A DNA stretch of 35,092 bases from an uncultured Acidobacteriia bacterium (lineage in GTDB: Bacteria > Acidobacteriota > Terriglobia > Bryobacterales > Bryobacteraceae): NCBI GenBank assembly GCA_903882645.1, contig CAIRXZ010000227.1, positions 1-35,092 on the forward strand. The letters are read 5' to 3'. The notes below the pieces were generated by a model, which ran no database searches, was not told the origin of the DNA, and saw only the letters and a list, made by a program, of their open reading frames with translations. Within the stretch, counting starts at the first letter, position 1. Each line of letters begins with the position of its first letter. Shown piece after piece: positions 178-24,392 of the stretch. Made by a program: the position numbers and the translations under genes.

Positions 178-3758
<3,581 letters not shown>

Positions 3759-3996
3759 AAAGCCCTCCGCTTCTACTATTTTTGACTATATACAGGAACA
3801 CAATTCAAAAACCGTGTTCACCGGGCCTGTGCAAATTGCTGAATACTCTCTAAATTATACTAAACTCAGCTAGTTTTCACGATAGGAACTTGTGGAAGCA
3901 GTGGCGGAAGGAATGCGAAAGAACAGCCGTGGCAGCGAGTTTCACACAATCTTCCTAAGGCTTCTCCACAGGTTGGTGTGCAAAAAACAGCTAACC
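3759..3996. other. dnaA-dnaN intergenic region, candidate oriC/DNA-unwinding region
   Basis: This 238-bp spacer is strikingly AT-rich at 3770-3880, with runs such as CTATTTTTGACTATATACA and CTCTAAATTATACTAAACTC, in an otherwise GC-rich window. At its dnaA-proximal end TTCTCCACA (3962-3970) differs at one base from the DnaA box TTATCCACA. Further box-like sites lie on the other side of dnaA at 5334-5354. Bacterial origins commonly flank dnaA with an AT-rich unwinding element and box clusters. Only a few imperfect boxes are visible, so this is a candidate only. Confidence 0.4.
3854..3882 (-). promoter_or_regulatory. Candidate dnaN-gyrB promoter
   Basis: Reading leftwards, a perfect TATAAT -10 hexamer lies at 3854-3859. 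A weak -35 (TCGTGA, 3 of 6) lies 17 bases upstream at 3877-3882. This would give a leader of about 90 bases ahead of the dnaN ribosome binding site. The -10 is clear but sits in an AT-rich tract where matches arise easily. Confidence 0.4.
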
Positions 3997-5307
3997 TCAT
4001 TGTAATGAGTCCATTAGGCTGTGCAACATCCTGTTCAAATCGGGGTTGATCAGACGTGATTGCTCAATCTTGTTTATGGAGTGAATAACGGTCGTGTGGT
4101 GCTTCCCCCCGAGCGCCCGGCCGATCTCCGGCAGCGAGGCATCCGTAAGCTCTTTGATCAGGTACATCGCGATCTGCCGCGGGTACACAATCTTTTTCGT
4201 GTTGCTCTTTTCCTTGAGCTGAGATTGCTTGATCTGAAACCGCTCGGCCACAGCTCTTTGGATGGAATCGATCGTGATTCTGCGATCCTGAACGTGCACC
4301 AGATGCTTCAGAATTTGCTGCGCCATTTGAACTGTGATAGCGGCCCCGGTCAGCGATGAGTACGCGACGAGCTTCACCAAAGCGCCTTCCAACTCCCGCA
4401 CGTTCGATTTGGTTTTTGACGCCATGAAGGTGCGTACGTCGTCGGAGAGCTTGATTCCCTCGGCTTCCGCCTTCTTATCGAGGATAGCCATCTTGGTTTC
4501 CAAGTCGGGAGGCTGAATATCGGCCATCAGTCCCCACTCGAACCGGGAGCGCAGGCGCTCGAGCAAGCCCGGAATCTCCTTGGGCGGCGCATCGCTTGAC
4601 ATCACGATCTGCTTCTGGTGATCGTGCAGTTCATTAAATGTGTGAAAGAACTCCTCCTGGGTTCGCTCCTTATTGCCGATCAGTTGGATGTCGTCCACCA
4701 GAAGCACGTCCACTTCGCGGTAGCGTTGGTGGAACTGCTGCATACGCTCAGTCCGTATGCATACGATCATCTCGTTCATGAAACGTTCGCTGGAGGTGTA
4801 GATCACCCGCATCGAGCCGAACCTCTCGGTGAGTTCCCGTCCAATAGCGTGCATGAGGTGCGTCTTTCCCATGCCCACTCCCCCGTAAAGGAACAGTGGA
4901 TTGTAGCTGCGGGAGGGGTTGGTAGCGACTGAGCGCGCGGCGGCGTGCGCGAACTCGTTGCATGCGCCCACCACAAACGTATCGAACGTGAACTTCGGAT
5001 TTAGAGAGCTGGCTGGCGGCTCGATATCGGTCGAATCCACGGCCGCCAGGGCTTGGCTCTTGGCGCCGCGAACAGGCTGCACTTCGTAAACGACGTCGCG
5101 TATGGGCAAGCCGAGCTCCCGGATGGCAGTGTGAACCATGCCGGCGTATTCGCTTTCGAGCCACGCGCGGGTCTCCCGGTCCGGCGTCGAGACAAACAAA
5201 GCGTCACCATCGGCGTAGAGGAACTCCGTGCCTCTCAGCCAGTTGTTGTAACTTTCAGCGCTAACCTTCTTCTGCAGGCAACTACAGATGTTTTCCCAGG
5301 AATTCAT
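3997..5307 (-). CDS. dnaA: Chromosomal replication initiator protein DnaA
   Basis: DnaA is an AAA+ protein that binds DnaA boxes and melts oriC. Domain I begins MNSWENICSCLQKKVSAESY, matching the family N-terminus. The AAA+ core shows Walker A GGVGMGKTHL and Walker B LLVDDIQLI. Domain IV carries the DNA-binding signature GGKHHTTVIHS. The chosen ATG at 5307 gives 436 residues. An in-frame GTG at 5355 would add 16 residues, but they do not resemble DnaA and overlap the DnaA-box-like sequences, so they are rejected. There is no strong Shine-Dalgarno sequence. dnaN and gyrB follow on the same strand, and tRNA-Gly diverges upstream. Confidence 0.97.
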   Translation of the reverse strand: MNSWENICSCLQKKVSAESYNNWLRGTEFLYADGDALFVSTPDRETRAWLESEYAGMVHTAIRELGLPIRDVVYEVQPVRGAKSQALAAVDSTDIEPPASSLNPKFTFDTFVVGACNEFAHAAARSVATNPSRSYNPLFLYGGVGMGKTHLMHAIGRELTERFGSMRVIYTSSERFMNEMIVCIRTERMQQFHQRYREVDVLLVDDIQLIGNKERTQEEFFHTFNELHDHQKQIVMSSDAPPKEIPGLLERLRSRFEWGLMADIQPPDLETKMAILDKKAEAEGIKLSDDVRTFMASKTKSNVRELEGALVKLVAYSSLTGAAITVQMAQQILKHLVHVQDRRITIDSIQRAVAERFQIKQSQLKEKSNTKKIVYPRQIAMYLIKELTDASLPEIGRALGGKHHTTVIHSINKIEQSRLINPDLNRMLHSLMDSLQ

Positions 5308-5333
5308 CAGTTTTTGGACACCAAGACTTCGGG

Positions 5334-5354
5334 ATTTCCACAGGGTTTTCCACA
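5334..5354 (+). promoter_or_regulatory. Two phased DnaA-box-like sites upstream of dnaA
   Basis: ATTTCCACA at 5334-5342 and TTTTCCACA at 5346-5354 differ from TTATCCACA at two bases and one base. They are 12 bases apart, about one helical turn. Their position just upstream of the dnaA ATG suits origin function or DnaA autoregulation. The number of sites is small and the consensus of this lineage is unknown. Confidence 0.4.
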
Positions 5355-5457
5355 CAAGCGCGGGATCGCGTGGCAGCTAGTCCAGGAAGATTGCCAACCC
5401 ACCTCTATTCGCCGCGCCACCGCTCGCCGCTGGTGTGTCCCATCGAACCGAGACAGT

Positions 5458-11664: not shown

Positions 11665-12876
11665 ATGAGATACGCGCTTCTGTTGCTGGTTGCGACTTCG
11701 CTCGGGGCCCAGAGCCTCCGATTCGATTTCACATCCGGCAAACCGGCGCCGGGCTTCCGAAGCGTGCTGCCCGGCGCGATGTACTCGGAAGAGACGGGCT
11801 ACGGCTTCGAAAACGCCGCCAAAGAACCGCCGTTCTATTTCTCCGTTCGCGTGCCCGAAGAGGGCAATTACAGAGTCACGGTGACGCTGGGCGATCCCGC
11901 GGCCGACTCGGTCACGACGATCAAAGCCGAGATGCGCCGTCTGATGCTGGAGCGCGTGCGCGTCCCGGCAGGCAAGGTTGAAACGCGATCGTTCCTTGTC
12001 AACGTGCGCACGCCGAAGATTCCCGGCGGCGGCGAGGTGCGGCTGAAGGACCGCGAGAAGACTTCCGAAGCGCGGGCCTGGGACAACCGCATCACGCTGG
12101 AGTTCACCGACACGCATCCCGCGGTGCGCACAGTCGAGGTGGAAAAGGCCGGCGACATCCCCACCATCTACATTGCCGGCGACTCGACCTCCACCGACCA
12201 ATCGGGCGAGCCGTTCAACAGTTGGGGGCAAATGCTGCCGCGCTTTTTCAAGCCAGAGATCGCGGTCGCCAATCACGGCGAATCGGGCGAGTCGCTGCGC
12301 GGGTTCCTCGGCGAGAAGCGGTGGGAGAAACTGCTGAGCGCGATCAAGCCCGGCGATTATGTCTTGATTCAAATGGGCCACAACGACCAGAAGGAGAAGG
12401 GCGAGGGTATCGGCGCGTTCACCAGCTACAAGAGCGACCTCAAACGGTTCGTGTCCGACGCGCGCCAGCACGGCGCCACGCCGGTGCTGGTCACGCCGAT
12501 GCATCGCCTTACCTTCGACGCGGAAGGCAAAATCACGAACAGCCTGGGCGACTACCCCGAGGCCGTGCGGCAGGCCGCCAAGGAAGAGAACGCGGCGCTG
12601 ATCGACCTCAACGCCATGAGCAAGCTCTTCTACGAGGCCCTGGGCCCAGCCGACGCGCATCTGGCCTTCGCCGGAAACGACACGACCCATCACGACAACT
12701 ACGGCAGCTACGAACTGGCCAAGTGCATCGTGGAAGGCATCCGGCAGGCCAAGCTGCCGATCGCGAAGTACCTGTTCGATATGCCGCACTTCGACCCCGC
12801 GCATCCCGACCCGGTGAGCAAGTTCGATATTCCCGCCGAGCCCTCCGCATGGGCGCAGCGGCCGTATGGCCAGTAG
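11665..12876 (+). CDS. Secreted SGNH/GDSL esterase, rhamnogalacturonan-acetylesterase-like
   Basis: Enzymes of this type remove acetyl groups from pectic rhamnogalacturonan so that backbone glycosidases can act. The 403-residue product has a signal peptide (MRYALLLLVATSLGAQ) and an N-terminal beta-sandwich, about residues 20-160, as in YesT-type enzymes. The SGNH core follows: GDST with catalytic S174, the NHGESGES block, GHND with N240, and D339-x-x-H342 in GNDTTHHDNYG. The catalytic set is complete. The ATG at 11665 lies 7 bases after TATGAT, so a leaderless transcript is possible. The next gene starts 13 bases after the stop, indicating a two-gene operon. The exact acetylated substrate is inferred. 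Confidence 0.88.
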   Translation: MRYALLLLVATSLGAQSLRFDFTSGKPAPGFRSVLPGAMYSEETGYGFENAAKEPPFYFSVRVPEEGNYRVTVTLGDPAADSVTTIKAEMRRLMLERVRVPAGKVETRSFLVNVRTPKIPGGGEVRLKDREKTSEARAWDNRITLEFTDTHPAVRTVEVEKAGDIPTIYIAGDSTSTDQSGEPFNSWGQMLPRFFKPEIAVANHGESGESLRGFLGEKRWEKLLSAIKPGDYVLIQMGHNDQKEKGEGIGAFTSYKSDLKRFVSDARQHGATPVLVTPMHRLTFDAEGKITNSLGDYPEAVRQAAKEENAALIDLNAMSKLFYEALGPADAHLAFAGNDTTHHDNYGSYELAKCIVEGIRQAKLPIAKYLFDMPHFDPAHPDPVSKFDIPAEPSAWAQRPYGQ

Positions 12877-12889
12877 AGGAGATCCACCC

Positions 12890-14584
12890 ATGCGCGCCAT
12901 TTCACTAGAAATGTCCCAACAAGGAATCTCACGCCGCGGCCTGCTGGCGGCATCGGCGGGGCTGCCCGCCGCGGCCGGCCAACCGGCCCCTCCCGCAACC
13001 GGGTATATCGATATCATGCGGCCGCCCGACCTGGCGACCGCGCTCCTGGACAATGAGACTGTCCCGCTGGCGCGCGAAGGCCCGCGTTGGACCGGCAAGG
13101 GGATCGCGCTGGAAGCCAATCCGCAAGGCTTGGAGCTGCCGATCGCCATCGAAGCGCCGCAGACGCCGCTGGAGCGAATCCACCTGAGGTGGCGCGCGCG
13201 CGTGCCCGAGCGCTGGCGCATTCTCAACGACCAATGGGAGCGCAGCTACGGGGACCTGGAGTGGCGATGCATGGTTGGCGAACGCATCCTGCCGTGGTAC
13301 TTTCTGGCATTCGACGGCAAGGCCACGCACGGCTATGGCGTGGCCACCGGCGCATCGTGCTTCGCCTTCTGGCAGGTAGATCCGGCGGGCATTTCGCTAT
13401 GGCTCGACGTGCGCAACGGTGGAGGAGCCGTAAGCCTCGGCCAGCGCAGGCTGGACGCCGCCGTGGTCCGCGCGCGGCGCGGCTCCCCGGAGGAATCGGC
13501 ATTCGGATCCGCGCGGCGTTTCTGCCGCGCGCTGTGCGCCAAACCCCGGCTGGCGGCGCAGCCCAGCTACGGCGTCAACAATTGGTACTACGCCTACGGC
13601 CAGAATTGCTCGGCGGAGGACATGCTGCGCGATTCCAGCCTTGCTGCCGATTTCGCGCCGGCCGGCTGGAACCGGCCGTTCGCGGTGATAGACGATGGCT
13701 GGCAGATCACGAATGCGGCGGGCCCCTGGGAACGCGGCAACTCCCGTTTCCCCGACATGGTCCGTCTGGCCGCCGAGATAAAACAGCGCGGCGCGCGCCC
13801 AGGCATCTGGATGCGCCCCCTGTACACCACCGCTGCGATTCCAGCCGGCGCCCGTATCGGGCGCCGCGAAAACTCGCGAAACGCCACCATCGATCCGACG
13901 GTCCCCGACATGCTGGAACTGGTCCGCCAGGATGTTCGGCGCACGGTTTCGTGGGGTTTCGAGCTGGTGAAGCACGATTACTCAAGCTTCGACCTGCTGG
14001 GCCGCTGGGGCTTCGCCATGGCTGGAGACATCACCGCCGCCGGGTGGCATTTCGCGGACCGGAGCAAGACGACCGCCGAGGTCGCGCTGGCGCTCTACCG
14101 CGCCATCCGCGAGGCCGCCGGCGACGCCACTCTCATCGGCTGCAACACCTTCGGCCACCTCGGCGCCGGGCTGTTCGAGTTACAACGCACCGGCGACGAC
14201 ACCAGCGGCCGCGAGTTCCACCGGACTCGGCGCATGGGCGTCAACACGCTGGCGTTTCGCGGTTCGCAGCACGGGGCCTTCTTCGCCTTGGACGCCGATT
14301 GCGCTCCGATCACGCCGGACGTCCCGTGGGAATTGGCGTCGCGCTGGCTGGACTTGGTGGCGCGCAGCGGAACGGCCCTGTTCGTGTCGCCAGACCCGAA
14401 GGCGCTCAACGCCGAGACGAGGGCCGCCATCAAGCGGGCGTTTGCCGCGGCCGCTCAGCCGCAGCCTTTGGCCGAGCCTCTGGACTGGATGGAGACCACC
14501 ACGCCCGGACGCTGGCGCATCCAGGGCAGAACCGTGGATTACGATTGGTACGGCGCTGAAGGGGCCACCCCATTCCCGCGTTAG
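12890..14584 (+). CDS. Secreted clan GH-D glycoside hydrolase, alpha-galactosidase-like
   Basis: The 564-residue product opens with a twin-arginine-like leader (SRRGLLAASAGLPAAA). The catalytic TIM barrel resembles GH36/GH27 enzymes: VIDDGWQ at about residues 266-272, PGIWMRPL, and FELVKHDYSSFD with a candidate nucleophile D363 in place of the usual KWD/KxD motif. A downstream GDDTSG (D436/D437) is the candidate acid/base. The N-terminal third looks like the beta-supersandwich that precedes GH36 barrels. AGGAGA lies 7 bases before the ATG at 12890. Co-transcription with the esterase suggests that both act on the same acetylated plant or microbial glycan. Clan membership is fairly clear. Substrate and family number are not. 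Confidence 0.78.
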   Translation: MRAISLEMSQQGISRRGLLAASAGLPAAAGQPAPPATGYIDIMRPPDLATALLDNETVPLAREGPRWTGKGIALEANPQGLELPIAIEAPQTPLERIHLRWRARVPERWRILNDQWERSYGDLEWRCMVGERILPWYFLAFDGKATHGYGVATGASCFAFWQVDPAGISLWLDVRNGGGAVSLGQRRLDAAVVRARRGSPEESAFGSARRFCRALCAKPRLAAQPSYGVNNWYYAYGQNCSAEDMLRDSSLAADFAPAGWNRPFAVIDDGWQITNAAGPWERGNSRFPDMVRLAAEIKQRGARPGIWMRPLYTTAAIPAGARIGRRENSRNATIDPTVPDMLELVRQDVRRTVSWGFELVKHDYSSFDLLGRWGFAMAGDITAAGWHFADRSKTTAEVALALYRAIREAAGDATLIGCNTFGHLGAGLFELQRTGDDTSGREFHRTRRMGVNTLAFRGSQHGAFFALDADCAPITPDVPWELASRWLDLVARSGTALFVSPDPKALNAETRAAIKRAFAAAAQPQPLAEPLDWMETTTPGRWRIQGRTVDYDWYGAEGATPFPR

Positions 14585-14760: not shown

Positions 14761-17700
14761 TCAGAAGTAAAACTTGGCGGCAATCTGGACGACGCGCATG
14801 TTCTGCGTGTTGGTGAACTCGCCGAAGTAGTAGCCGAGAACCTGCGAGCTTCCGGAGGCTGGCCGCGTGTTTGTCGTAGCCACAAGGCCGGTGAAATTGC
14901 TGAATATGGCGTTTCCGGTCGCGCCCGCGCCGTTGGTCACGTTGGTGGTCAGGTTGTAGCTCTGGAACTGGGGATGGTTGGGGGCATTGAACGCCTCCAG
15001 GCGGAGTTGGACATAGCGTTGGCTCCCGTCTCCGCTCAGCGGGATATTCTTAAACACCGAGAGATCCTGGTTCACGATCCAGGGGTTGCGCAGGTACATG
15101 CGCGGGTAAGGGCCGGTGTTGCCGAGCCCGGGAACCGTCAGGGCCGACACGTTGACCGTCGTGCCGGTTTGGGGAGCACCGCTTAACAAGAAGCGCATCT
15201 GCTGCCCCGAGAGATTGCCGGCGGTGGGGGTTCCCAGAAGACGGGCCCCAGAATCCTGCCCTGAGATGGTAAGACCGACATCGGTCGGCATCCCGGATGC
15301 AAGCGTGGTGACTCCGGAAAGTTCCCAGTGGTCCAGGATCGCGCCCACCACCTTATTGCCACCGAAAATCCCGCTGCCCTTCGGCAGATTCCAGACAAAG
15401 TTCCCAACGAGGTAGTGCGTGCGGTCGAAACTGGCGAGCGCATAGTCGAGCGACGGGTTCACCAGTCTGGTCATGGTGCCATCGTCGGAAATGGTCGTCT
15501 GGGTCTTCGACAGAGTATACGCGACGCCAAAGGTGAGACCCTTCGAGAACCGCCGCTTGACGGACACCTGGAGGGAATTGTAATCCGCCTTGGCGTCGAA
15601 GTTGTAGTAAGTAATGTCGCTGTACCCCTGGTAGGGGCGCAGGAAGTCCGTGGCCAAAATGTTCGCCCCGCTGAAGCTCAGCCCAGCGCCCGAGTAAATC
15701 GACGGAAGTCCGGATTCGGTAGCCGGGATGACTCCGCCGGCGAACTTGGTCGGATCCTGCGCCGCGGCCGTGAAGGTTGTCCCATAGGGCGGGGTGTTCA
15801 GATTCGCCTTGCGGGGAAGATCGCGCGATTTCGATCCGACGTAGGAGACGTCGATCACAGTGCCTAAGCCGATGTTCCGCTGCAAGCCGATGCTGTAGGT
15901 GTACATGTGCGGAAAACTCATATTTTCGGTGACGGCGGTGACCGTCAACGGCGACAGAATGCCGCCCCCGCCGGGCTGGATGTTCTGCAAGTAGCCGTAC
16001 TGAAGGGTTGGCTGGAGGACCAACGGCGCGTTGCTGGCTCCAAACCCCGTAAGACCGCTCTCGTACCGGTCGATTGAGATTCCGTAACCGCCGCGCACCA
16101 CCGTGTTGTGGCTGCCGGTTACATCCCACGCAAAGCCGACGCGGGGCTGTGGCAGAATCGCCCGCGTGATGACGCCGCCACTCGGGTAACCCTGACTCAC
16201 CAGTTGCATCCCGTTGCTGATGCTGCCGACGTTCGGCACCAACTTGCCGACGTAGTAGCCCGGTTGGGTGTTCGCCAGCGTCGCGGCGCCCGTAGTGGCC
16301 GGGTCGATGGCCCGGTACGTGGCCGCTCCCAAAGAGCAAGTCGAGGCGCCGACGCAAACCGGCCTATAAAGGCGCTCCGCCTGGGTGGGATCGAATGCGG
16401 CGGGATTGAAGTAGGCCCCATCTCCATTGGTGTTGTAGACCGGCTGAAACCAGGAGAACCGCATGCCGAGGTCGAGCGTCAGGTGGCGGCTGACCTTCCA
16501 GGTGTCCTGCGCGTACCAGGAGACGTCGCGGTAGAGATAGTTCTGCAACGGCTTCCCGTTTGCCTGAGTGTACGTGTTGTACACGCCCAACAGGGCGTTG
16601 GCGAAGGGGTAGCCGGTATTGAGCGGGTTGGAGGAGCTGTTCGTAAAGTCGATGTCGCTCTGCACGTGGGTTTGGTTGTTGCTGGCATTCGAGGCGCTCT
16701 GGAAATAGAAGCCCAACTTGACCTCGTGCTTGCCGGTAACCTTGGTGACGCTGTCCATGATCTGCCAGATGAGGAATCGCTGATTGAAGGGACCGAAGAG
16801 GCTGGTGCTGGCGACGGTGCTGACGCTCGCGATCCCGCCGAAAGTCAGGCTTGGAACATAGCCGGGCGTGTTGGCCAACGGATAGAGCATCGGCGTGTTA
16901 ATGCCGGATGCCGCGCGGGTGACCGCGTCGCCCTGCGGCGCGATCGTAACGCCGCCCCGGCCAATTCCGAAAACGAATTCGTTCACCCAGGTGGGACCGA
17001 AGTTCTTGGTGAGCGAAATGCTCGGCACGCTGCCCGGACCGTTCTTCCGGTCCGTGATGGTGAGCGGCCAATTCCAGGATGCCGTCGTCGTACCGTAGGC
17101 GAATTGCTGGTCGTCGTGGTTGTAAACCCAGCGCACGCTGAGCCGGGTATCGTCTCTGATGTTCCAGTCGCCGCGAAGGATGGTCTCATTCCGGGGGTAG
17201 GCGCTGGGCACCTGGGAAGAGTAGTTGTAGAGATTTCCGCCCGCGGTGGTGTTGGACGGGGGCAGGAAATTGAGGATCGTTTGGCCGGGGCTGTAGAGAC
17301 GGGTGCTTGGGATTTTGTTCCCCGGAAACGGGGCCCCGGTGGTCGGATCGACGATGGTGATCGCCTTGCCGGCGCCGTCCACCGTACTTGAGAAGTCCCC
17401 GCCGCGCTCGGCCGCCGTGGGAACACGGATGTTCTGCGACGTAGCTTGGGGCACCAGTTGGCTGTAATACTCCTGGCTGACGAAGAAGAAGAGTTTGTTC
17501 TTTCCGTGCACCAGGTGCGGGATGAAGATCGGCCCTCCGAAATGCCACCCGTAGAAATTGTAGCGGTACAGCGGGCGGGCGTATGTGCCTTGGGCGCCCC
17601 GGAGGTCGTTGAAATAGGTGTTGGCGTTCATGCTGTCGTGGCGGCGAAAGTAACTGGCGCCCCCGTGATACTCGTTCGTGCCCCCGCGCGTGGTCAGCGC

Positions 17701-18435
17701 GATGAGACCGCCGCCGGATCTGCCGTACTGGGCCTGGTAGTTCGACGTCAGGACCTTGACCTCCTCGAGCGCGTCGGGGTTCACCGACACCAGCGCCCCG
17801 GTGTTGTTGCCCAGGTTCAAGTTCGTTATGCCGTCGAGCGTGTATTCGTGCTGGAGGCTGCGCGTGCCGTTGACCTGGAAACTGCCGGTGATGTTGGTCA
17901 CCGTGGAAGCCGCGTTCGCCACCAGGCCGCTTACGTTGACGCCGGGAATGAACTTCATCATATCGACGATGTTCTGGCCGTTGAGCGCGATCTCCCGGAT
18001 GTCCCGGGTGGTCACCACGTCGGAACGCTCGCCCGAATCCGCCTGGATCTGGATCGTCCCGGCATTGGCTTCGACGGTCACGGTGTCGGTGATGTTGCCG
18101 ACCTGAAGAACGACGTCGCCCACTCCGACCTTGGTGGCCACCGACACGATGACGTTCAGGCTTTCGCTCTTCTTGAAGCCCTTAGACTCCGCGGTCATGG
18201 TGTAGGTTCCCGGCGGCAGTTGGGGGAAAATGAAGTTCCCTTCCGCGCTGGTACTCACCGTCTGGCGAAAAGCTGTAGCCTGTTCGATCACGGTCACTGC
18301 CGCCCCGGGGATCACCCCGCCGTTGGAATCCTTGACCGTACCGGTGATTGAACCACTGCTCTGCGCAAAAGCACAGATCGATAGGCAGGCCATCGCGATG
18401 AGCGCCGCCAGTATTCTTCGCACGTTCCGCACCAT
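14761..18435 (-). CDS. Oar-like TonB-dependent outer-membrane receptor
   Basis: Receptors of this type import or bind large substrates, often glycans, using TonB energy. The 1,224-residue product has a signal peptide ending CAFAQ. A carboxypeptidase-regulatory-like beta-sandwich follows (SGSITGTVKDSNGGVIPGA). Next is a plug domain, including the REIALNGQNIVDMMKFIPGV region, and then a long beta-barrel ending in aromatic VVQIAAKFYF, as outer-membrane proteins require. The ATG at 18435 is chosen because AGGAG lies 8 bases upstream. Starts at 18441 and 18456 lack suitable spacing. It diverges from the sensor kinase across 192 bp that hold a large palindrome. No SusD-like partner is present. The substrate is inferred from neighbouring hydrolases. 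Confidence 0.93.
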   Translation of the reverse strand: MVRNVRRILAALIAMACLSICAFAQSSGSITGTVKDSNGGVIPGAAVTVIEQATAFRQTVSTSAEGNFIFPQLPPGTYTMTAESKGFKKSESLNVIVSVATKVGVGDVVLQVGNITDTVTVEANAGTIQIQADSGERSDVVTTRDIREIALNGQNIVDMMKFIPGVNVSGLVANAASTVTNITGSFQVNGTRSLQHEYTLDGITNLNLGNNTGALVSVNPDALEEVKVLTSNYQAQYGRSGGGLIALTTRGGTNEYHGGASYFRRHDSMNANTYFNDLRGAQGTYARPLYRYNFYGWHFGGPIFIPHLVHGKNKLFFFVSQEYYSQLVPQATSQNIRVPTAAERGGDFSSTVDGAGKAITIVDPTTGAPFPGNKIPSTRLYSPGQTILNFLPPSNTTAGGNLYNYSSQVPSAYPRNETILRGDWNIRDDTRLSVRWVYNHDDQQFAYGTTTASWNWPLTITDRKNGPGSVPSISLTKNFGPTWVNEFVFGIGRGGVTIAPQGDAVTRAASGINTPMLYPLANTPGYVPSLTFGGIASVSTVASTSLFGPFNQRFLIWQIMDSVTKVTGKHEVKLGFYFQSASNASNNQTHVQSDIDFTNSSSNPLNTGYPFANALLGVYNTYTQANGKPLQNYLYRDVSWYAQDTWKVSRHLTLDLGMRFSWFQPVYNTNGDGAYFNPAAFDPTQAERLYRPVCVGASTCSLGAATYRAIDPATTGAATLANTQPGYYVGKLVPNVGSISNGMQLVSQGYPSGGVITRAILPQPRVGFAWDVTGSHNTVVRGGYGISIDRYESGLTGFGASNAPLVLQPTLQYGYLQNIQPGGGGILSPLTVTAVTENMSFPHMYTYSIGLQRNIGLGTVIDVSYVGSKSRDLPRKANLNTPPYGTTFTAAAQDPTKFAGGVIPATESGLPSIYSGAGLSFSGANILATDFLRPYQGYSDITYYNFDAKADYNSLQVSVKRRFSKGLTFGVAYTLSKTQTTISDDGTMTRLVNPSLDYALASFDRTHYLVGNFVWNLPKGSGIFGGNKVVGAILDHWELSGVTTLASGMPTDVGLTISGQDSGARLLGTPTAGNLSGQQMRFLLSGAPQTGTTVNVSALTVPGLGNTGPYPRMYLRNPWIVNQDLSVFKNIPLSGDGSQRYVQLRLEAFNAPNHPQFQSYNLTTNVTNGAGATGNAIFSNFTGLVATTNTRPASGSSQVLGYYFGEFTNTQNMRVVQIAAKFYF

Positions 18436-18455
18436 GTACATCACTCCTTTTCCCA

Positions 18456-18515
18456 ATTAACCGGAATTCCCATTTTGGATTAACCGGTCCGATACACTAT
18501 CTCTGACGCAGTATA
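18456..18515 (-). promoter_or_regulatory. Receptor promoter with paired repeats
   Basis: Reading leftwards, a good -10 TATACT lies at 18510-18515 with no recognisable -35, which suggests an activator-dependent promoter with a start near 18503. Downstream of it, ATTAACCGG occurs twice in the same orientation at 18456-18464 and 18479-18487, 23 bases apart, about two helical turns. The repeats lie in the leader and could bind a repressor. Confidence 0.4.
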
Positions 18516-18541
18516 CACAGAAGTACGCCACCACGATCTGC

Positions 18542-18573
18542 GCGAATAGCATAGTCAAGACTATGCTATTCGC
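18542..18573. promoter_or_regulatory. 32-bp palindrome, candidate shared operator
   Basis: Arms GCGAATAGCATAGTC (18542-18556) and GACTATGCTATTCGC (18559-18573) are perfect 15-base inverted repeats around an AA centre. The 2-base centre makes an RNA hairpin unlikely and a dimeric protein site likely. The centre lies about 54 bases upstream of the inferred receptor start and 70 bases before the kinase ATG. A possible third half-site CTATGCT is at 18601-18607. The adjacent NarL-type regulator is the obvious candidate ligand. Confidence 0.65.
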
Positions 18574-18627
18574 ATAGGATCAAGCTCGTCCCGCTTGGCG
18601 CTATGCTTGGGAGTTGAGACTTACGAC

Positions 18628-21600
18628 ATGAGCCGGTCAAGCAGGATCGTCCGCGATTGGCGCCGAACCGGCATCGCCGCGGGATGCCTGGTTCTCTGGT
18701 GGCTCTTGGCGCTGCCAGCGCTGCCGGCGCCGCCCGCCGGCGCAACGGGACTGGGCCTGGCGGCCGCGGCTACGGGTTACGGTATCGACTTCTGGCGCGA
18801 GGCGGAGGGCCTGCCGCAATCCAGAGTCAGAGCTATCGCGCAGACCCACGACGGCTACATCTGGCTGGGCACCGACGGCGGCGCCGTCCGCTTCAATGGA
18901 GCCAGCTTCACGGCGTTCACGGTGGAAAACGGAAGTCTGAAGGACAACGAGGTCTGGGCGCTGCAGGAAGACGACGAGCACGCTCTCTGGATTGGAACCT
19001 TTGGAGGCGGCCTCACCCGCCTCAAGGATGGCCGGTTCAAGACCTTCACAACGGCCGACGGCCTGCCCGACGATATTGTCACGCGCATCGAGAAGGACGC
19101 GTCCGGAGATCTCTGGATCGCCACGTCGAGCGGGTTCAGCCGTTATTCGCACGGGCGTTTTATCCGCATTGAGTCTCCGGATAGATCCGTCACCGCCACG
19201 CGCGACACCATCTGCGCGCGCTCTCCGCACGACGTGTTCATAGCCCTGAGCTCGCAGGTGCTCCGTCTCTCGGACGGCCGCTTCGAACCGCTCGGCGGAC
19301 TCGTCCGGAAAGGCGACGGAGCGATTGAGAAACTCATCTGCGCCGCCGATGGTTCGTTCTGGGTCGGGTTCGGCAGCGGCGCGATCAAGAACTGGAAGGC
19401 CGGCAGGGTCGACACATACAGGCCGCCGCACGGCCCATCCACGACGATAACGGCGCTCTATCAAGACGCCGGCGGCGGCGTGTGGGCAGCCTTGGGGGGG
19501 ACGATTTGCCGGCTGCGGAACGGACGATTCGAACCGTTGCCCTTGGGGGATGAGAGAGCCGACCTCGGCGCGGTGTACAGCATGCATCTCGACCGGGAAG
19601 GCAACCTCTGGGTCGGACTCCAATCGAACGGGCTGGGCCGTCTCCGTGTGAAGCAGATCTCGACCCTGCCCGTGCCGGAAGGCGCGCCCGACGAGATTGC
19701 ACGGTGCGTTTATCAGGACCGGCGCGGCGATGTCCTGGTGGGAGCGTCCAGCGGGTTTGGACGGTATCGCGAGGGGAGGCTGCTGTCGCGCACGAGCCTC
19801 CCGGGAGGGCGTTCGGGACCCGTGAGGTCGTTCGCCGAAGACCCCCAAGGCCGGCTCTGGATCGCGGCCGGCAAGGATCTGCTGCTGCTGGAGCGAGGCC
19901 GCCTGACCGGCTTCCCCGGCTGGCGGGCTTCTTCCGAAATCACGGTGATTTACGGAGATGCCCTCGGCGGCATGTGGGTTGGAACCGACTGGGATGGGCT
20001 GTACCAGTGGACCGGCCGGGCTTTCCGGAATTACCGCAGCCAGGATGGATTAGCCGGAAATCGAATTCGCGCGCTATTGCGCGACCGCCAGGGCGCGCTC
20101 TGGATCAGCGCGGTCGGAGCAGGCGTGAGCCGGTTTTCTCAGGGGAGGTTCACCAATTATGGGACCGGCGCGGGTTTGGCGGGGAATCGTGTGTACGCCA
20201 TTCACGAAGACGAGGGCGGTACGTTATGGTTCGCCACGCGTGGCGGGCTGACCCGGCTCAAGGATGGGAAGTTCTTTTCCTATACCTCGGCATCGGGCCT
20301 GTTGGTCGACTTTGTCTATAGCATTCTCGATGACGGACTAGGCAACTTCTGGTTTAGCTCCGCACAGGGGATCTTTAAGGTCGGCAAAGCCGAACTGGCG
20401 GACTTCGCCGACGGGCGGGCTAAGAAAGTTGTCTCGGTGAGTTATGGCGTGCGGGATGGGATGAAGACGCGCGCCTGCAACGTCGGCAACCAGCCTATCG
20501 CATGGAAGACAACCGGCGGCCTGATGTTGTTCAGTTCGTTGAAGGGCCTTGTGGTGGTCGCCCCCAACCGCGTGACATCCAGTTCTTACATCCCTCCGGT
20601 GCACATCGAAAGCGTCAGCGTGAACCGGCGTCCGCAACCGCTGGACCGCGAGCCCAGTCTGTCGCTGGGCGCCGGAGAGGTGGAGATCGACTACGCCGCC
20701 CTTAGCTACGTGGATCCCGAGAAAGTCCGATTTAAGTACATGCTTCAGGGTTCCGACAGCGACTGGGTGGACGCCGGCGGCAGGAGATTCGCATACTACG
20801 CCAACCTGCGGCCCGGACGGTACCTTTTTCGTGTGATTGCCGGGACCGTCGGCGGATCGTGGAACGAAGTCGGCGCATCGTTCGGATTCTATTTGAGGCC
20901 GTATTTCTATCAAACCCGAACGTTCATCGGGGCTATCGTGTCGGGCGTGTTGCTGCTGGCCTGGCTGCTTTACAGACTCCGCGTGCATGAGTTGAAAGCC
21001 CGCTATTCCGCGGTGCTGGCCGAGCGCAACCGAATCTCCCAGGATATCCACGACACCTTCGCGCAGAATCTCGCCGGCATCGCGTTGCAGTTGGATTCGA
21101 TGACCATGCAGTTGGAGGAGATTCCCCAAAGTCTGAAGGAGCGTCTCGACGAGGCCTGCAACCTGACGCGGTACAGCCTGGCGGAAGTCAGGCGCGCCGT
21201 CGGGGACCTGCGCGCCGACGAACTCGCGCGAGAAGAGCTGCCGGCGGCGCTGCCCGCTATCGCCAGGAGGATGGCGGCCAACTCCGCGGTCGAGCCTTCC
21301 ATCCAGGTGGTGGGCACGCCGAAACGGTTGAACCCGGTGACCGAGAAGAATCTCCTGCGCATTTTCCAGGAAGCCCTGGCGAACGCGCTCAAACACGCCA
21401 ATGCCCAGGCGATCGATGTCGAGTTGAGGTACGAGCGGGAGGACTTGGTCTTGCGCGTGCGGGACGACGGGCGCGGCTTCGACGCGGAGATGGCGATTCC
21501 GCTCGGAATCGGCCACTACGGCCTGACGGGCATGCGCGAGCGGACCGAAAGGATAGGCGGACGCCTCACGCTCCGAAGCGCGCCCGGCGAGGGAACCGAA

Positions 21601-21630
21601 TTGCTGATCGTAGTGCCGCTCTCGGCCTAG
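18628..21630 (+). CDS. Membrane sensor histidine kinase with two-component propeller ectodomain
   Basis: This 1,000-residue kinase has an N-terminal signal or membrane segment (about 16-36). Thirteen propeller segments of the type W-[IL]-G-T...G-R-F follow (about 50-620), enough for two seven-bladed propellers. Next come a Y_Y_Y domain (about 675-740), a transmembrane helix (about 765-785), and a HisKA_3 dimerisation helix with phosphorylated H808 in ISQDIHDTFAQN. The HATPase_c domain has FQEALANALKHA, VRDDGRGFD and HYGLTGMRERTERIGGRL. The layout matches periplasmic glycan sensors of the hybrid type, but receiver and DNA-binding domain are in the next gene. The ATG at 18628 is preferred over TTG 18595. 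The ligand is unknown. Confidence 0.93.
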   Translation: MSRSSRIVRDWRRTGIAAGCLVLWWLLALPALPAPPAGATGLGLAAAATGYGIDFWREAEGLPQSRVRAIAQTHDGYIWLGTDGGAVRFNGASFTAFTVENGSLKDNEVWALQEDDEHALWIGTFGGGLTRLKDGRFKTFTTADGLPDDIVTRIEKDASGDLWIATSSGFSRYSHGRFIRIESPDRSVTATRDTICARSPHDVFIALSSQVLRLSDGRFEPLGGLVRKGDGAIEKLICAADGSFWVGFGSGAIKNWKAGRVDTYRPPHGPSTTITALYQDAGGGVWAALGGTICRLRNGRFEPLPLGDERADLGAVYSMHLDREGNLWVGLQSNGLGRLRVKQISTLPVPEGAPDEIARCVYQDRRGDVLVGASSGFGRYREGRLLSRTSLPGGRSGPVRSFAEDPQGRLWIAAGKDLLLLERGRLTGFPGWRASSEITVIYGDALGGMWVGTDWDGLYQWTGRAFRNYRSQDGLAGNRIRALLRDRQGALWISAVGAGVSRFSQGRFTNYGTGAGLAGNRVYAIHEDEGGTLWFATRGGLTRLKDGKFFSYTSASGLLVDFVYSILDDGLGNFWFSSAQGIFKVGKAELADFADGRAKKVVSVSYGVRDGMKTRACNVGNQPIAWKTTGGLMLFSSLKGLVVVAPNRVTSSSYIPPVHIESVSVNRRPQPLDREPSLSLGAGEVEIDYAALSYVDPEKVRFKYMLQGSDSDWVDAGGRRFAYYANLRPGRYLFRVIAGTVGGSWNEVGASFGFYLRPYFYQTRTFIGAIVSGVLLLAWLLYRLRVHELKARYSAVLAERNRISQDIHDTFAQNLAGIALQLDSMTMQLEEIPQSLKERLDEACNLTRYSLAEVRRAVGDLRADELAREELPAALPAIARRMAANSAVEPSIQVVGTPKRLNPVTEKNLLRIFQEALANALKHANAQAIDVELRYEREDLVLRVRDDGRGFDAEMAIPLGIGHYGLTGMRERTERIGGRLTLRSAPGEGTELLIVVPLSA

Positions 21631-21654: not shown

Positions 21655-22287
21655 ATGAGCCAGACTTCGCAGATTCGAATCATGATCGTGGAAGATCATT
21701 TTGTGGTCCGAGTTGGGCTCAAGGCGATCATCAACAGCCAGCCGGACATGGTGACCGTGGCTGAGGCCGCAAACGGGAAACAGGCGATCGAAGCCTTCGA
21801 GCAATATCAGCCCGATGTGACGCTGATGGACTTGCGGATTCCCGGCTTGAACGGGATCGGCGCTATTAGCGGAATCATAGAGAAATCCCCGCGCGCGCGG
21901 ATCATTGTGTTATCGACGTACGCCGGAGACGAGAACATCTCCCGGGCCTTCAAGGCGGGGGCCAGGGCGTATTTCCTGAAGGACGTCAAAGGCCAGGATC
22001 TGGTGGACGCGATTCGCGCGGTCCACGCCGGACTACGGCCGGTTCCGCCGGGGATCGCGTCCCAACTGGCGGACAGCGTCCCGCGCCCGCCCTTGAGCTC
22101 GCGGGAAATGGAGATTCTCACGCTGATCGCGAAGGGTAAGTCGAACAAGGAAATCGCGGCCGATCTTACGATCAGCGAAGGAACGGTCAGGGTCCACGCC
22201 AGCAACCTTTTCGCAAAACTGGGTTGCAGCGATCGGGCGCAAGCGGTGTCGGAGGCATTTCGCCGCGGCATTGTCGATGTCGATTGA
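21655..22287 (+). CDS. NarL/FixJ-type response regulator
   Basis: The 210-residue protein has an N-terminal receiver with acidic pair E13/D14, phosphoacceptor D59 in DVTLMDLRIPG and the conserved lysine in YFLKDVKG. A C-terminal LuxR-type HTH follows (LSSREMEILTLIAKGKSNKE, then IAADLTISEGTVRVHASNLF). It starts 24 bases after the kinase stop, so the two form a cognate pair. HisKA_3 kinases normally pair with this regulator class. A likely target is the 32-bp palindrome upstream of its own operon and the divergent receptor. Confidence 0.96.
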   Translation: MSQTSQIRIMIVEDHFVVRVGLKAIINSQPDMVTVAEAANGKQAIEAFEQYQPDVTLMDLRIPGLNGIGAISGIIEKSPRARIIVLSTYAGDENISRAFKAGARAYFLKDVKGQDLVDAIRAVHAGLRPVPPGIASQLADSVPRPPLSSREMEILTLIAKGKSNKEIAADLTISEGTVRVHASNLFAKLGCSDRAQAVSEAFRRGIVDVD

Positions 22288-22341: not shown

Positions 22342-24132
22342 CTAATCGGTCCACGGCGACGAGGGCGTTCCGGCGCTGGAGGCTTGGGGACGGCCGCTGA
22401 ACGGCGCCGCCTTCCCCGAATGCACGTCGCGCAGCCGCCGATGGGCAGCCCTGGCCGCCTCGACCAGTTCCGGGTAAGGACGGTCCGTCGAATCCACAAA
22501 GCCGATGTTATAGTTTTCGCCGTCCATTCGGCCCAGAACCGGTTCGTCGCGCCATGTAAACCAATGCGCCCCGAGAAACGCGGGCAGCGCCGCCGCCTGC
22601 TCGACGTAGTAACGATATCCTTTAGCGCGCTCGGCCTGATCGCGCGTCTGCACGAGACCCGCGCCCAATCCGTTCTCCGGCACGCCGAAGTGAAACTCAC
22701 CAATCAGCACCGGGCGTCCGGTGATCCGCGACGTGCGCTCGATCTGTTTGGTCGGCTCGTATTCATATACATTGATGCTGCACACATCGAAGACCCGCGC
22801 GCATCGCAGGACATTCTCCCGGGGCGTTCCGCCGAAACGGATGCCGAGGTTCAGGTGATGGGGGTCGTACTTGCGAATCGCCGCGCCGACCAGTTCAAGC
22901 TGCTTCTCAAACGCCCCGACCACGAACTCCTTCCGGCGGTTGGGCGTGTCGCCCTTGGCCAGGAATTCCTTGAGTTTGCCCTGCGTGGCGGTCGCCGGAC
23001 CAGCCAGAATCATGTCCACTACCTCGCTCTCACGGTCGCCCCACGGCGGTTCGTTGCCGATGAAGTAGCCGAGCAGCAGCGGGTCGTCCTTGCGCGGCGC
23101 GCACTGCCTGGCGGCGGTTTCGTCCACGCCGCGGGCGAACTCGCCGGAATAGACGTCGGCCACGCCCAGAAACGTGTTCTGCCCTCTGGGCGCGTTGACG
23201 TACGCGGTGTAAGGCTTGGACATCCCTTCGGAGCCGGTGTTGAACCCCCAGGCGTCCAGGCGCCGGACGAGCCGGCTCGCGGCGGGATTCGCCGCCTGAC
23301 TTGCGGCGCCGCCGCGGCCGCCCACGCCGTTCGACCCGGTCGAAAGGAACAGGTGGCCGTGCGGATCCACGAACCACCACTTGCCGTCAATCCGCTCGAC
23401 GCGGAAGAAGCCTGTCGCCTTGGCCTGGGAGCTCTTGTAGCCGCCGTATTCGCAATAATCGAAGTCGCCGGGTTTCAGCGTCTTCTCCTCCGCGGCCATC
23501 TCCTGTTCCAGTTGCTCCCGGTTCCTGATCTTGCGCGGCCAATCCGCGCGCGCCCATTGCCCGAATTCGTCGAGCACGGGTTTGCCCTCCAGGAAATCGG
23601 AGCCGGGGTCCTCCTTGGCCAGTTGCATGGACCGTATCTCCAGCGTGGGCTTGGCGATCGGGTATTCCATCGTAAAGCCGAGAGACTCGATGTTCTTCAG
23701 ATCGCCAAACGGTCCCCAGATCGACATCCAGAAGGAATCGGTGCGGCGATTGTTGGTGGATGCCAAATCGAAGCCCGACTGGTCTTTCCCCTTGAAGTAA
23801 CGCAGCGGGACCGATGCGCGCAGCCAGACATTCTGGCCGAACGGTTGAAGCATGATTCGCCGCGGTCCGGAGGCCGTGTAAAGCCGCACGGAAAACCGCT
23901 GCGGCGTGGACGTCTTCATCTCCAGGACGAGGTAGTTCCATCCCGACCAATCGGAAGGCCACTCGGGGTTCAGTTCCTTCAGCGTCCATTTTTGCTCGGA
24001 CTTCACGCCATCGAAGACGACGCGGCGCGTCTGCGATTGAGCGGAGCCTTTCGGAGACGGACAAATCGCCAGCGCCACGAGGACGAAGATGACGGCTGAG
24101 ACGCGGGGGGCCGGAATGGCCGGAATTCTCAT
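22342..24132 (-). CDS. Secreted GH50/beta-agarase-like glycoside hydrolase
   Basis: The 596-residue product begins at ATG 24132 with a signal peptide (VSAVIFVLVALAICPSPKGS). An upstream extension of 71 residues runs into repeat DNA and is rejected. AGGAG lies about 10 bases before the ATG. An N-terminal beta-sandwich, about residues 35-190, precedes a TIM barrel with GKWWFVDPHGHLFLSTGSNG and the acid/base E361 in GYFIGNEPPWGD. The nucleophile is E479 in VLIGEFHFGVPE. The NEP and GEFHFG motifs are typical of GH50 agarases. In a soil-type genome the true substrate may be another galactan. It is convergent with the regulator and probably belongs to the same carbohydrate locus. Confidence 0.82.
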   Translation of the reverse strand: MRIPAIPAPRVSAVIFVLVALAICPSPKGSAQSQTRRVVFDGVKSEQKWTLKELNPEWPSDWSGWNYLVLEMKTSTPQRFSVRLYTASGPRRIMLQPFGQNVWLRASVPLRYFKGKDQSGFDLASTNNRRTDSFWMSIWGPFGDLKNIESLGFTMEYPIAKPTLEIRSMQLAKEDPGSDFLEGKPVLDEFGQWARADWPRKIRNREQLEQEMAAEEKTLKPGDFDYCEYGGYKSSQAKATGFFRVERIDGKWWFVDPHGHLFLSTGSNGVGGRGGAASQAANPAASRLVRRLDAWGFNTGSEGMSKPYTAYVNAPRGQNTFLGVADVYSGEFARGVDETAARQCAPRKDDPLLLGYFIGNEPPWGDRESEVVDMILAGPATATQGKLKEFLAKGDTPNRRKEFVVGAFEKQLELVGAAIRKYDPHHLNLGIRFGGTPRENVLRCARVFDVCSINVYEYEPTKQIERTSRITGRPVLIGEFHFGVPENGLGAGLVQTRDQAERAKGYRYYVEQAAALPAFLGAHWFTWRDEPVLGRMDGENYNIGFVDSTDRPYPELVEAARAAHRRLRDVHSGKAAPFSGRPQASSAGTPSSPWTD

Positions 24133-24213
24133 GAATGGACTGCTCCTTTCAGATCTAACCAATTCTCGCCTATTCCGATCTTGTCCGGCGTCTTCGGGTG
24201 TGCGACACAAAAA

Positions 24214-24321
24214 GTGGGGCCAGGCCTTCGGGCCTGCCGCCGGGCTTTGGCCCGGCGTCGCGCGACAACGCGAAGAACGCCGGCTCAAAAGCCGGCGGCA
24301 GCCCGAAAGGGCCGGCCCCAC
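24214..24321. repeat. 108-bp multi-hairpin intergenic element
   Basis: The element is bounded by GTGGGGCC (24214-24221) and GGCCCCAC (24314-24321), which pair perfectly. Inside are AGGCC-ttcg-GGCCT (24222-24235), GCCGGGC-ttt-GGCCCGGC, CGCCGGC-tcaaaa-GCCGGCG and GCCC-gaaa-GGGC. The pattern is a cloverleaf of nested hairpins, as in REP/BIME-type repeats. It lies between the agarase-like gene and a broken toxin gene. A genome search would be needed to show copy number. Confidence 0.6.
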
Positions 24322-24392
24322 AAGAGCGCCCGTCCTTGCGTCCACATACGATCGGATTCAGGCCGTTCTGCCAATGGATCGCGCTGGCGTCC

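Follow-up and report, generated by a model that had tools for sequence, protein, structure and literature searches.

The window, that is, the whole stretch of 35,092 nucleotides that was analyzed, comes from an uncultured Acidobacteriia bacterium of the Bryobacteraceae. Its minus strand carries a gene for an Oar-like TonB-dependent receptor (14761 to 18441; Pfam OMP_b-brl_4, CarboxypepD_reg, and Plug) that starts at an ATG at either 18441 or 18435. Divergent from it, on the plus strand, lie a gene for a Reg_prop/Y_Y_Y/HisKA_3 sensor kinase, recognized by Pfam and by its relatives, which runs from its ATG at 18628 to 21630, and a gene for a NarL/FixJ-type response regulator (21655 to 22287; Pfam Response_reg and GerE), which we propose as the binder of the site described below. 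In the regulator, a Response_reg match (2.4e-25) is followed by a LuxR-type GerE match (6.7e-22), and the closest solved chains are VraR and then NarL. The gene that adjoins the regulator has both HisKA_3 and HATPase_c, and by this adjacency we take its product to be the cognate kinase. Two long frames border the system (12866 to 14584 on the plus strand and 22342 to 24345 on the minus strand); their composition is coding-like, and neither matched Pfam at E 0.01. An inverted repeat at 24214 to 24321, with 45-base arms that are 80% complementary and lie 18 bases apart, is possibly terminator-like or a repeat element. The minus strand also carries gyrB, dnaN, and dnaA in a row (178 to 5355), so that the window is probably near a replication origin.

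Between the divergent gene starts, and outside the inferred transcripts, lies a 32-bp palindrome (18542 to 18573) with the arms GCGAATAGCATAGTC and GACTATGCTATTCGC around an AA center. The preliminary description had reported that two 15-base arms pair perfectly here and that the structure is far beyond chance for the window, and both points held up: the pairing is exact at 15 of 15 positions, and a palindrome with arms of at least 15 bases and a center of 0 to 2 bases is expected ~0.0003 times per random 35-kb window of equal composition (~0.04 times for the same class in 5.27 Mb). The distance of 54 bases that it gave to the receptor start had to be reassigned, as this is the distance to the kinase ATG at 18628; the receptor start is 100 to 106 bases off.

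Searches allowing up to three mismatches over 26 specified bases found the palindrome to be single copy in its own genome, and at up to three mismatches it was absent from 100 relatives, so that among 101 genomes only its own carried it. A genome-wide repeat or mobile element was ruled out by these two results. The exact 20-base core had one match among the genome contigs, in Paraglaciecola, which we took to be a chance match, the surroundings being unlike by eye. When the 12-base half AATAGCATAGTC was sought in the window's own genome with at most one mismatch, five places were found, two of them the palindrome itself, versus four for the control.

Close orthologues of the kinase (53 to 68% identity) were found in eight genomes besides the window's among 237 genomes of the family; among 399 genomes sampled from the class, three, all of the same family, had a kinase match at E ≤ 1e-200. 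The upstream regions of the first two close orthologues, in genomes G033 and G023, gave the consensus CTATGCGAATGTCATAG, a 17-bp inverted repeat of the form CTATG-N7-CATAG, which is the conserved unit. Three further genomes found by kinase similarity (G060, G115, and G121) have the site at the same place, with one mismatch in G060, and in G048 a 16-bp variant adjoins the divergent receptor gene, ~0.4 kb from the kinase. The clusters of G101 and G109 are rearranged, with receptor and kinase on one strand and the receptor first; neither has a site before the kinase, only sites with two to three mismatches elsewhere in the cluster, namely, a three-mismatch site ahead of a hydrolase-receptor-kinase run in G101 and a two-mismatch site ahead of a xylose-isomerase-like gene in G109. 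A further site in G109 lies on another contig (C72), ahead of a hydrolase-like frame. Thus, the operator is found in the gene cluster of all eight relatives (an exact copy in four, a one-mismatch copy in one, the 16-bp variant in one, and sites with two to three mismatches in two), and it was kept in the cluster despite the rearrangement in G101 and G109. Conservation at orthologous loci, on which the preliminary description had staked its reading, was therefore lacking for the 32-bp palindrome (1 of 101 genomes) and present for the inner 17-bp operator.

The exact 17-mer occurs four times in the 237 family genomes, each time at this locus, and the three one-mismatch places away from the locus are all inside reading frames. 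The upstream regions of more distant kinases that we examined lack the site. The regulator adjoins the kinase in all eight relatives. In an alignment read by eye, the acidic pair (E13/D14), the phospho-acceptor aspartate (D59), and the lysine (K109) of the receiver are present in 9 of 9 orthologues; the recognition-helix region, SEGTVRVHASN, is invariant in the same number and differs in all 10 regulators beside more distant kinases. The relatives' neighboring genes encode 3-keto-disaccharide hydrolases, xylose-isomerase-like proteins, and an alpha-L-fucosidase, a hint that the signal may be related to sugars; in the window, the two flanking frames without a Pfam match offered nothing of the kind.

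Measured against this unit, the window carries the operator twice, head to head, and the part that is identical in both copies is the palindrome. Copy 2 (CTATGCTATTCGCATAG, 18561 to 18577) is an intact inverted repeat, CTATG-CTATTCG-CATAG, which differs from the consensus at two positions when read on the minus strand and so falls within the three-mismatch limit for the family operator. Copy 1 (CTGCGCGAATAGCATAG, 18538 to 18554) reads CTATG-CTATTCG-CGCAG on the minus strand, its outer half having decayed. With a scoring matrix made from eight sites from relatives (the 16-bp site of G048 was omitted), copy 2 was the best place in the window (22.6 bits) and copy 1 the second best (13.4), the next place scoring 9.6. 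Copy 1 is weak alone, as 166,053 bases from other loci contained eight places that scored at least as high; this background comprised 27 of 29 receptor loci, with those of G023 and G033 dropped. The palindrome is probably a doubled operator, in which the second copy arose in this lineage as an inverted duplication of ~20 bp. As to which copy is ancestral, the kinase-side position favors copy 2 and the core orientation favors copy 1; in the kinase tree, open forks surround the row of the window's kinase. As far as sequence can tell, we judge the palindrome to be a real regulatory site; its kind is known, and its doubling was seen in this genome only.

The relatives also share a fixed spacing between the operator and what follows it. 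From the site toward the receptor, hydrolase, or isomerase genes, all eight tabulated loci show N20-22, (A/G)TGAC(A/C), 17 bases, and TANNNT, which we take for a promoter of the sigma-70-like type whose activator site lies near -64. The composite of site and promoter pattern occurred at eight places in 7 of the 237 genomes, all seven of which have the kinase, and the reversed control gave none. The pattern was drawn from seven of its own eight places, and the 16-bp site of G048 cannot match it. What is informative is therefore that the pattern was absent elsewhere and that it turned up at one new place (G109, contig C72); Fisher values computed for it carry no weight here, the pattern having come from these very genomes. 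Neither the window nor the rest of its genome has a match to this composite. On the receptor side of the window, a putative -10 element, TATACT (18510 to 18515, minus strand), stands at the same distance from copy 2 as the relatives' -10 elements; the -35 slot 17 bases from it (18533 to 18538, minus strand) holds GATCGT, which is not a -35 element, and copy 1 lies against this slot. This agrees with the preliminary description, which gave the receptor promoter a -10 but not a -35. Alignments of this side with the relatives did not rise above shuffled sequences (z of 0.7 to 1.4, versus 2.2 to 4.3 among the relatives).

The kinase side of the window aligned with that of G060 (z = 5.6) and not with that of G033 or G023 (z = -0.2 and 0.6). 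In this alignment, TATGCT (18602 to 18607, plus strand) falls on the same hexamer in G060, 20 bases before the ATG in both, and is therefore better read as the kinase -10 than as a half-site; the letters CTATGCT at 18601, which had been put forward as an extra half-site, are present and probably belong to this promoter. By eye, in the window as in G060, G115, and G121, 22 to 24 bases lie between the site and the -10-like hexamer that follows it, a gap that leaves no room for a -35 element. In G033 and G023, we dropped TTGATT as a candidate kinase -10 and reread it as the -35 of a pair, TTGATT-N17-TAC(G/C)AT, that lies 22 to 23 bases after the site and is -35/-10-like by eye.

Both putative promoters in the window therefore lack a -35 element, and their -10 elements lie 42.5 and 44.5 bases from the center of the palindrome, close to mirror symmetry. 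If start sites are placed by rule of thumb from the -10 elements (near 18503 on the minus strand and 18614 on the plus strand), the two copies are estimated to lie at -43 and -66 relative to the receptor start site and at -45 and -68 relative to that of the kinase. Because the -10 elements flank the palindrome almost symmetrically, each promoter would have one of the copies near -44 and the other near -67. The missing -35 elements in the window, together with the lack of room for one at the kinase promoters of G060, G115, and G121, fit the need for an activator.

The reading that we favor, with somewhat better than even confidence, is that the palindrome is a doubled operator of the NarL/FixJ-type regulator encoded at 21655 to 22287 and mediates two-way, self-amplifying activation. 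The propeller kinase would sense a nutrient signal, perhaps a sugar, and the signal of this adjacent kinase would lead to phosphorylation of the regulator. One 17-bp inverted repeat would bind one regulator dimer; the phosphorylated regulator would occupy both copies and bring RNA polymerase to two divergent promoters without -35 elements, toward the TonB receptor in one direction and the kinase-regulator operon in the other. At each promoter, one copy would stand in a class II position (near -44) and the other in a class I position (near -67). We infer the promoters, their start sites, regulator binding, and activation rather than repression from the DNA and its comparison with relatives. The proposal in the preliminary description of a NarL-type activator site serving both directions thus gains from the conserved 17-bp unit, the fixed promoter spacing in relatives, and the invariant recognition-helix region, although the unit that it named was the wrong one. 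More tentatively, and with less confidence than we give to the doubled operator itself, we suggest that an inverted duplication of the operator in this lineage turned a promoter with its own -35, like those of the relatives, into a near-mirror, fully activator-dependent divergent promoter, at which each dimer would act as class I for one gene and class II for the other.

The alternative that survives best, though we think it rather doubtful, is that copy 2 alone works for this regulator and that an inverted duplication by template switching produced the left arm as a by-product, neutral or in decay. The relatives manage with a single site, one half of copy 1 is lost, its score is no higher than that of chance places in coding DNA, and template switching at quasi-palindromes is described, in the accessible part of the source, as an origin of perfect inverted repeats. 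What speaks against it is the receptor promoter, whose -35 is present in the relatives and missing in the window, with copy 1 set against the slot as if it had taken it over. It seems unlikely that the co-encoded regulator's site instead serves to repress one gene or both, or to switch transcription from one direction to the other. By position, the site adjoins or overlaps the polymerase-binding region at both window promoters, which would suit a repressor; set against this are the activator need of promoters without a -35, or without space for one, and the relatives' site, which near -64 is clear of the receptor-side promoter. Slightly less probable still is that the 17-bp site is used by a DNA-binding protein other than the co-encoded regulator. 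Inverted repeats of this sort suit many dimeric regulators, yet the exact site was confined to clusters with the kinase-regulator pair (all four places in the 237 genomes, and all seven genomes for the composite) and stayed in the cluster through the rearrangements in G101 and G109. It is very improbable that the palindrome has no regulatory role and is a product of chance, a structural repeat, or a mobile one: the 32-bp unit is indeed single copy and missing from the 100 relatives at up to three mismatches, and its core has an exact match in the unrelated Paraglaciecola, but its 17-bp component is conserved in orthologous clusters and it occupies the gap between the two diverging gene starts, where no inferred transcript runs.

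The favored reading follows an ordinary and known logic, in which divergent activation is combined with positive autoregulation. The regulator resembles NarL and VraR in combining a receiver with a GerE domain and in having an adjoining HisKA_3 kinase. NarL recognizes a 7-2-7 heptamer site, from which CTATG-N7-CATAG differs. In Bacteroides, polysaccharide loci are served by hybrid two-component systems in which a Reg_prop/Y_Y_Y sensor is encoded beside a TonB-dependent outer-membrane receptor. The present locus shares that pairing of sensor and receptor; unlike the hybrids, it encodes the kinase and the regulator as two proteins, uses GerE as its output domain, and has a receptor of the OMP_b-brl_4 (Oar-like) type. 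ComA of Bacillus subtilis is a response regulator whose helix-turn-helix is of the same kind; according to the accessible part of a study of its class III promoters, a distal class I site and a proximal class II site are combined at a single promoter (PMC4797271), which is the arrangement that we propose here. The proximal ComA site in that account is a direct repeat (PMC4797271), whereas both copies in the window are inverted repeats, and one pair of sites in the window would serve two divergent promoters. An inverted repeat at the class II position of ComA cut output >10-fold, again by the accessible part of the study (PMC4797271), which makes the efficacy of copy 1 a real question.

The locus supplies a concrete candidate operator for a system that links a propeller kinase and a NarL-type regulator to an Oar-like receptor, and the eight relatives, which have the undoubled form, allow its doubling to be compared. 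If the duplication did turn a promoter with its own -35 into an activator-dependent one, the locus preserves a natural example of a promoter being rewired as a palindrome forms. Searches of the open-access literature with narrow terms found no earlier description of the operator's setting; given that scope, its novelty is likely rather than shown.

Searches for further targets began to lose specificity once the motif was loosened. With up to three mismatches, CTATGCGAATNNCATAG had 60 matches in the window's own genome versus 26 for the control, so that the loose motif is overrepresented, with 54 of the matches at three mismatches. No second target emerged in that genome, as all three other places with at most two mismatches are inside reading frames. 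A broad CTATG-N7-CATAG regulon was rejected as not specific, with 16 places versus 8 for the reversed control in eight genomes; of 13 such places away from kinase loci, 9 are inside reading frames and 4 are before other genes. Judged by these counts, only the full 17-mer is a specific motif. Two CTATG-N7-CATAG repeats lie 32 bases apart inside a long reading frame in G011 (contig C1, locus L077, 1501 to 1549), a genome without a close kinase orthologue. Among the looser family-wide matches whose contexts were read, a two-mismatch place in G101 (L096) is outside called frames. Finally, at locus L152 of G060 (contig C389), where the composite promoter is not present, a place with two mismatches (CTATGCGAATATCATAT, 1514 to 1530) has a GH32 gene on one side and an Oar-like receptor gene on the other and may, as a weak lead, be a second target of the regulator in that genome.
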